Origin: Thermicanus aegyptius DSM 12793
Lineage (GTDB): Bacteria > Bacillota > Bacilli > Thermicanales > Thermicanaceae
Direction of reading: 5' to 3'
DNA length: 64,000 nucleotides
Assembly: GCF_000510645.1 (NCBI RefSeq)
Contig: NZ_KI783301.1
Coordinates: 955,873 to 1,019,872, forward strand
Of this stretch, positions 13,669-14,649 are shown piece after piece; positions within the stretch are counted from its first letter, which is position 1, and every line of letters starts with the position of its first letter. Below the pieces are notes generated by a model. That model ran no database searches. It was not told the origin of the DNA and was given only the letters and a program-made list of their open reading frames with translations. A program made the position numbers and the translations under genes.

Positions 13669-14015
13669 ATGCGATTTGATTACTTAAAAAGATCAATAAT
13701 ATTTCTTTGGAAATACGGTAAAAAGTGAGTAACAAAAAGTGAGTAACATTGATCTTCGTTTTGAGAATTATTGATGGTCTCCTTCCGATTGGTTTATTAT
13801 GGGTTACGAAAGAAATAATAGATAACGTGACACTCATTATTAAGGATGGTGCGTCATACGATTTAACTTTAATTTGGTTGCTGATCTTTCAGTTTATTTT
13901 AACTGTTATTATGTCATTAACTAGGAATGCCCAAGAGATTATAAATTCAAAGTTAGAGATATCTATTGAGTATGAAAAAAAGCGGAGTATCCTCGTTAAA
14001 GATGAAATCCTGTGA
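13669..14015 (+). pseudogene. truncated ABC exporter gene remnant
   Basis: ATG 13669 begins MRFDYLKRSIIFLWKYGKK and meets TGA at 13726. After a 14-bp tandem duplication the sense continues in another frame (LIFVLRIIDGLLPIGLLWVT then KEIIDNVTLIIKDG) to a stop at 14015. Removing one repeat copy joins both halves as KYGKK-stop-VTLIF, so the stop is probably a former Trp codon (TGG to TGA). The sequence resembles the first two membrane helices of fused ABC exporters (membrane domain plus ATPase, usually about 600 residues). Only about 110 codons survive. The AT-rich composition differs from neighbouring genes. Confidence 0.7.
13720..13747 (+). repeat. 14-bp tandem duplication
   Basis: AAAAAGTGAGTAAC occurs at 13720-13733 and again directly at 13734-13747. 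Its length is not a multiple of three and it breaks the exporter reading frame. Confidence 0.92.
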
Positions 14016-14045: not shown

Positions 14046-14074
14046 TTGCAATCCAGGAGTAAACATGGTACATT
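14046..14074 (+). promoter_or_regulatory. sigma-A promoter of speH
   Basis: TTGCAA at 14046-14051, 17-bp spacer, TACATT at 14069-14074; predicted start near 14081. This leaves an untranslated leader of about 120 bases. Confidence 0.65.
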
Positions 14075-14093: not shown

Positions 14094-14193
14094 TAGGAAC
14101 CAGGATTCACTCAATGGTTGGGGAACTGGCTTATACCCCTGTAGTGAATGACGCAGGTCCTAGCGATTCATCATTATTTTGCTAGGAAGGGGG
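14094..14193 (+). promoter_or_regulatory. structured speH leader, candidate translational riboswitch
   Basis: Nested helices are visible. P1 pairs TAGG (14094-14097) and ACC (14099-14101) with GGTCCTA (14156-14162), leaving A14098 bulged. P2 pairs ATTCACT (14105-14111) with AGTGAAT (14143-14149). P3 pairs GGGG (14120-14123) with CCCC (14136-14139). CTGG in the P3 loop (14126-14129) is complementary to CCAG at 14100-14103. The 3' strand of P1 can instead form a perfect 7-bp helix, TCCTAGC (14158-14164) with GCTAGGA (14181-14187), which covers the start of the ribosome site. The two states exclude each other. I do not recognise it as a known class; a ligand is not identified. Confidence 0.6.
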
Positions 14194-14202
14194 AACCGAA
14201 AG

Positions 14203-14601
14203 ATGGAGTATTCTACTTTCGGCAGGCATGTTGCCATTGACACTTGGGGAGTTGATTACACCCTCTTAAACGATGCGGAATGGCTGAAACACCAACTGGT
14301 CGAAGCTGCAGAAATGGCAGGGGCTACCGTTCTGGGAGTGCAAGAGAGACAATTTGAACCACAGGGTGCGACGGTTCTCGTCCTGCTTTCTGAAAGCCAC
14401 ATTTCGATTCACACCTATCCGGAGAAGGGGTTTGCGGCGTTGGATTGCTATACCTGTGGCGAAACTGTAGATCCCCAAGTGGCGATTGATTACCTCGTAT
14501 CAGTCCTCAAACCGGAGAAGGTCTATGGGAAAAAAATAATTCGGGGTGCAGGGGAGATGGAAGTCACGGAAGCGGTCAAGGAACTTGCACCTGTACGATG
14601 A
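14203..14601 (+). CDS. speH: S-adenosylmethionine decarboxylase proenzyme
   Basis: Makes decarboxylated S-adenosylmethionine, the aminopropyl donor for spermidine. The 132-residue proenzyme is of the short prokaryotic type. It has GRHVAIDTWGVDYTLLNDAEWL at the N-terminus and the self-cleavage motif LLSESHISIHTYPEKGFAALDCYTCG, where the Ser before His becomes the pyruvoyl group. A homologous His and the Cys of YTCG are also present. ATG 14203 is chosen because AGGAAGGGGG ends ten bases upstream; a TTG at 14179 lies inside the leader structure. It is monocistronic, with its own promoter, leader and terminator. No speE or other polyamine gene is nearby. Confidence 0.95.
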   Translation: MEYSTFGRHVAIDTWGVDYTLLNDAEWLKHQLVEAAEMAGATVLGVQERQFEPQGATVLVLLSESHISIHTYPEKGFAALDCYTCGETVDPQVAIDYLVSVLKPEKVYGKKIIRGAGEMEVTEAVKELAPVR

Positions 14602-14623
14602 GCAAAGAAGAGTGAAGGAAACA

Positions 14624-14649
14624 GGGACCCTTGGTGAAGGGGTCCTTTT
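14624..14649 (+). terminator. Rho-independent terminator after speH
   Basis: GGACCC at 14625-14630 pairs with GGGTCC at 14640-14645, followed by TTTT. Confidence 0.8.

Follow-up and report, generated by a model that had tools for sequence, protein, structure and literature searches.

The window, a 64,000-nucleotide stretch of the Thermicanus aegyptius DSM 12793 genome, carries speH (14203-14601, + strand), whose 132-aa product is an AdoMet decarboxylase (AdoMetDC; TIGR03330, 138 bits against a cut-off of 75.65; PF02675, E=3e-35). Upstream of the gene, the sequence predicts a probable sigma-A promoter, TTGCAA-17-TACATT (14046-14074, +), with an extended -10 element (TG at 14066-14067) and a transcript start at about 14081; the same TTGCAA / TGnTAT arrangement also lies just 5' of the aptamer in most homologous leaders. 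An intrinsic-terminator-like hairpin was recognized in the sequence 3' of speH (14623-14647, +), so that the unit is probably monocistronic, and this was the only such signal, none being present ahead of the gene. Further upstream, a short open reading frame of 88 aa (13749-14015, +) looks by eye like the N-terminal part of the membrane domain of an ABC exporter; it had no Pfam or NCBIfam match and is probably a truncated gene, because it breaks off shortly before the speH promoter. The T. aegyptius genome contains two PF02675 matches but one copy of the leader RNA described below.

The Shine-Dalgarno (SD) sequence of speH, UAGGAAGGGGG (14183-14193, +), has its core AAGGGGG at 14187-14193, 9 nt before the ATG at 14203. 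The start codon itself is enclosed by a hairpin, CCGAAAG/CUUUCGG (14196-14202 with 14216-14222, +), which is kept, with G-U variants, in speH-type leaders; none was seen in SpeD-type leaders.

A conserved fold in the speH leader

Between promoter and ribosome site, the leader can adopt an aptamer-like fold of three nested helices. P1 (14094-14162, +) pairs UAGGA(A)CC at 14094-14101, with A14099 bulged, to GGUCCUA at 14156-14162, and P2 (14105-14149, +) is a perfect 7-bp helix of AUUCACU (14105-14111) with AGUGAAU (14143-14149). They are separated by the internal loop L1 (14102-14155, +), AGG at 14102-14104 opposite GACGCA at 14150-14155, which is highly conserved in lineages with a GGAACC-type P1. 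The P3 domain (14112-14142, +) consists in the window of GGGG (14120-14123) and CCCC (14136-14139) plus the loop. In other lineages the near-invariant CUUAAAGGGUURGGACCUC-N3-GGACUAACUUUCCCCCGUGG stands where the window has this domain; the window leader thus combines a diverged form of P3 with the conserved form of P1, L1 and P2. In one homologue the apical loop of P3 measures roughly 55 nt instead of the usual 3 nt; insertions are thus tolerated here, and the loop probably does not belong to the core. Many speD leaders also have a conserved stretch, about CGTGAACTTC(TT), directly 3' of the -10 box, which in these Bacillaceae-type loci may be part of the RNA 5' end or a DNA operator.

Folded as a single sequence, the window leader was no better than shuffled sequence (z of -0.47 and -0.68), and the claim of a structure therefore rests on comparison with homologues. 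Seventeen close homologues analysed with RNAalifold gave almost no covariation; this alignment is uninformative because it is too conserved in sequence, and diverged homologues are needed. In an alignment of 83 homologous aptamers, 88.4% of the cells of P1-P3 (24 pairs) were paired. Both-sided changes affected 15 of the 24 pairs, compared with 8.9 +/- 1.5 in shuffled alignments, and 77 cells, compared with 26.8, with none of 500 shuffles reaching either value; sliding the 3' partners gave at most 13 pairs and 50 cells with such changes. These shuffles preserve column composition and ignore the relatedness of the sequences, so that the results are not probabilities, but chance is an unlikely source of the signal because many distinct pair types occur across some 40 families. 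P2 contributed both-sided changes in 5 of its 7 pairs, its pairs 4, 5 and 6 forming in 64, 63 and 60 of 65 CCCCC-core leaders (shuffled maxima 50, 51 and 48), and P3 in 8 of 10 pairs across the family. At position 7/80 of P1, a bulged A with G was found in 58 distinct sequences and a U-A pair in 20, always coupled; SpeD-type leaders have a P1 of different sequence.

The initial annotation had proposed P1 with its bulged A, the 7-bp P2 and a 4-bp P3 from the letters of the window, and all three lie where it placed them and covary among the 83 homologues. Its additional pseudoknot between a loop CTGG and CCAG has to be abandoned, as CTGG was found in only 7 of the 83 loops. Homologous leaders show many compensatory changes, and we regard it as near certain that the leader is a conserved regulatory RNA.

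Two segments complementary to the ribosome site

A second helix, UCCUAGC (14158-14164) with GCUAGGA (14181-14187; 14158-14187, +), is part of the minimum-energy fold of the unliganded RNA and is exclusive with P1, the strand UCCUA at 14158-14162 being common to both, as the initial annotation had pointed out. Its arms covary: across speH-type leaders, matched arms yielded -15.06 kcal/mol and arms swapped between species -12.62 kcal/mol (0/2000 permutations), and the upper stem alone -2.84 and -1.06 kcal/mol, respectively. The further proposal that this helix occludes the speH ribosome site holds for the 5' half of UAGGAAGGGGG (UAGGA), which is all that the helix covers, and fails for the GGGGG half. 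The latter can instead be covered by a C-tract (14136-14139, +), a second anti-SD segment able to pair with GGGG of 14189-14193. The C-tract had gone unnoticed in the initial annotation and is an important part of the element. Judging from complementarity, the two segments together would cover the ribosome site, and in the window the aptamer fold would capture both. Two exclusive states with an SD-blocking platform, also put forward at the outset, are conserved in the speH lineages. In SpeD-type leaders UCCUAGC/GCUAGGA is absent and another hairpin takes its place; the C-tract and GGGGG are kept.

By sequence, both the UCCU segment and the C-tract are complementary to the SD, and in some lineages C-tract and SD appear to have changed together. 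A GGGGG Shine-Dalgarno was present in all 65 CCCCC-core leaders, compared with 19 of 366 background genes, the latter being genes that flank the leader loci. Where the tract reads CUCCUC, the SD was of the matching GGAG type in 14 of 14 cases (3 of 67 for CCCC tracts); in the clearest, the site AGAGAGGAGA lacks GGGGG and pairs fully with its own UCUCCUC. The CUCCUC change may reflect few evolutionary events. Pairing energy between C-tract and SD was not specific to matched pairs (-12.41 versus -12.59 when permuted), since C-rich tracts and G-rich SDs pair in every combination; the support therefore lies in the background contrast and the CUCCUC change, not in a general covariation signal.

Distribution and gene association

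A DNA search with the leader gave matches of 70-87% identity in 21 of 60 relatives, the window's own genome not counted. R1, a covariance model built on the complete leader and used at E<=0.001, matched 151 of the 399 Bacilli genomes sampled, and R2, an aptamer-only model built from the 83 sequences and used at E<=0.01, matched 263 of the 399, in 109 of 145 genera and, by hand count, 43 families. Carriers include Aneurinibacillus, Brevibacillus, Tepidibacillus, Vulcanibacillus, Sulfoacidibacillus and Ferroacidibacillus. In one genome a second, weak match (E=0.0095) looks like chance.

The RNA is closely tied to a single gene. PF02675 was present in 293 of the 399 Bacilli genomes, and a hand comparison found gene and RNA together in 262, the gene without the RNA in 31 and the RNA alone in 1, where it lies 17 bases from a contig end; the metabolic association is thus consistent in 262 of 263 RNA-bearing Bacilli genomes. 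Among the 31 RNA-less genomes, 18 had only weak PF02675 matches, and several of the other 13 have AdoMetDC directly behind another gene, apparently in operons. At all loci whose downstream gene was read (roughly 75) that gene encodes AdoMetDC, and no other downstream gene was found among them. Outside Bacilli the RNA occurred in three genomes, again ahead of AdoMetDC. Phage records gave no match and plasmid records a single one, also upstream of speD: in Anoxybacillus amylolyticus the RNA lies on a plasmid with the order gapB-type GAPDH, speD, then nrdR. The housekeeping cluster there (NZ_CP015439.1), mutM-coaE-GAPDH-speD-nrdR, is on a 258-kb replicon annotated as a plasmid. In four genomes two AdoMetDC genes were seen, each with its own RNA copy, and the copies within a genome differ in sequence version.

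A proposed switch and its alternatives

A conserved fold, covariation, an alternative helix, C-tract/SD complementarity and an exclusive gene association all emerge from the comparison of sequences, and we infer from this pattern a switch, a metabolite as its effector, the likely metabolite and the sign of control. The leader would fold either as an aptamer-like rod (P1-L1-P2-L2-P3) or as a blocked form, with GCUAGGA paired to UCCUAGC and the GGGGG of the ribosome site paired to the C-tract. The aptamer fold of the window would hide both anti-SD segments, UCCUA in P1 and CCCC in P3, leaving the site exposed (ON). Since the two site-blocking strands are precisely those taken up by P1 and P3 in the window, aptamer formation should open the site, and the simplest reading is a leader that is off by default and on when the aptamer is stabilized.

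Under a nearest-neighbour model, which leaves out pseudoknots and tertiary structure, the blocked form of the unliganded window RNA reached -47.3 kcal/mol and the P1+P2 aptamer -37.1 kcal/mol, with a probability of 0.000 for P1 and 0.972 for the SD helix. With the aptamer some 10 kcal/mol less stable, something would have to stabilize it, and a small molecule of the SAM/polyamine pathway probably stabilizes one of the two folds. On balance, we consider it reasonably probable that the leader is a cis-acting RNA switch that controls AdoMet decarboxylase at the level of translation, is stabilized by a metabolite and, most simply, is blocked by default. That the RNA senses a metabolite of some kind is likely.

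The association with a single gene argues for a compound specific to this step, that is SAM, decarboxylated SAM (dcSAM) or spermidine. SAM, the substrate, would fit ON control and is the candidate we favour, followed by dcSAM or spermidine, either of which would need OFF logic. dcSAM is a product of AdoMet decarboxylase alone, and we know of no riboswitch for it. It is conceivable, if rather improbable, that the leaders form a widespread new single-enzyme riboswitch class that either senses dcSAM or holds two separable sensing modules, in the latter case P1/L1, which speH-type leaders keep, and the L2/P3 core, which SpeD-type leaders keep, some lineages having both.

The most serious competitor to default blocking reverses the sign. 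P3 of intact-core lineages leaves the C-tract unused, so that the SD could stay paired to it while the aptamer is folded: the aptamer would offer the CCCCC of L2 to the GGGGG of the SD as a pseudoknot, ligand would block translation as product feedback by dcSAM or spermidine, and the anti-aptamer would be the hairpin UCCUAGC/GCUAGGA, whose end lies immediately 5' of AGGGGG. Ligand binding blocks translation in preQ1-II, SAM-III and SAM-II riboswitches, and product feedback is the usual logic for biosynthetic genes; in the intact-core lineages the P3 model does leave CCCCC unpaired, and the SD there is always GGGGG. However, P3 itself can use the C-tract in the window and in lineages whose P3 is GGGUGG/CCGCCC or AGGA/UCCU, and there the competition between P1 and the SD helix makes the aptamer favour an open site. 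We give this OFF arrangement roughly the standing of a one-in-four outsider.

Binding of the leader by a protein, either AdoMet decarboxylase itself or another RNA-binding protein, would explain the one-gene association simply as autoregulation, and the B. subtilis speD-gapB region, which may hold the leader, is enriched with Hfq (PMC3574147). Yet metabolite aptamers typically combine a compact fold with long internal-loop sequence that is near-invariant, as here, and the RNA core is common to both types of leader even though SpeD and SpeH proteins visibly differ in sequence, which makes a protein effector improbable. Slightly less credible still is a static structure that has no specific effector and merely reduces or adjusts translation, or else responds to temperature or Mg2+; the unliganded fold does strongly block the SD, but an SD-blocking helix alone needs no near-invariant core such as CUUAAAGGGUURGGACCUC...GGACUAAC, which spans some 40 families. 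Control by a leader peptide, as in speFL or polyamine-responsive uORFs, is largely refuted and very improbable: the 23-codon ATG frame of the window (14114-14185, +), which crosses the aptamer and stops in the SD hairpin, at the TAG within GCTAGGA, has no conserved start codon or frame, a frame through the core being open in 0, 16 and 2 of 65 leaders for the three frames, and no conserved upstream reading frame was found in them.

Relation to known systems

The initial annotation had recognized no known SAM, SMK, ykkC or preQ1 class, and Rfam 15 agreed: the window leader had no match at the gathering threshold or even at E<=10, and nine relatives, several with a better-conserved core and SpeD types among them, gave nothing relevant at E<=1. 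The covariance models of SAM-III/SMK, SAM-II, SAM-V, SAM-VI and preQ1 in Rfam 15 did not match, nor did the SAM-I four-stem fold, at the same relaxed thresholds. Together with the compensatory changes and the exclusive states, these results support its reading of the leader as a putative translational riboswitch. The most fitting description of the leader RNA is a candidate orphan riboswitch with a structure that defines a new class.

In the openly readable main texts searched, the one trace found was a line in a table of Hfq co-immunoprecipitation from B. subtilis, which lists a stretch of the speD-gapB intergenic region as 'Unknown or speD leader region' (PMC3574147); a prior description elsewhere is possible. 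That region is possibly the same leader, with the gene neighbours of the RNA-carrying Anoxybacillus amylolyticus locus, but it is listed only as an enriched stretch of 79 nt, with neither structure nor function (PMC3574147). The main texts of three comparative screens (PMC8632094, PMC11109978, PMC6429828) contain no such motif, nor speD, speH or spermidine.

In the majority of gene-bearing Bacilli, Bacillaceae included, the element would place conserved control on the step that commits the aminopropyl donor to spermidine synthesis, and it offers an explanation for the unusual GGGGG ribosome site of AdoMetDC genes. Absent from Rfam 15, it is a candidate, open to direct testing, for a new RNA that senses a polyamine or a derivative of SAM.

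With SAM-III (the SMK box) and other SD-sequestering SAM and preQ1 riboswitches, the leader would share, by analogy, an anti-SD output, and it has a SAM-using gene downstream; it differs from these classes in its helices and core and in its gene, which is speD/speH rather than metK or queuosine genes. The spermidine riboswitch already described, a four-stem variant of SAM-I, is rare, with 13 known examples, and works through transcription termination (Salvail et al. 2023, PMC10853860). Like the leader described here, it is a cis-acting element of Bacillota found upstream of polyamine genes including speD (PMC10853860); unlike it, the present leader forms a single irregular P1-P2-P3 rod with a predicted translational platform and occurs in hundreds of genomes.
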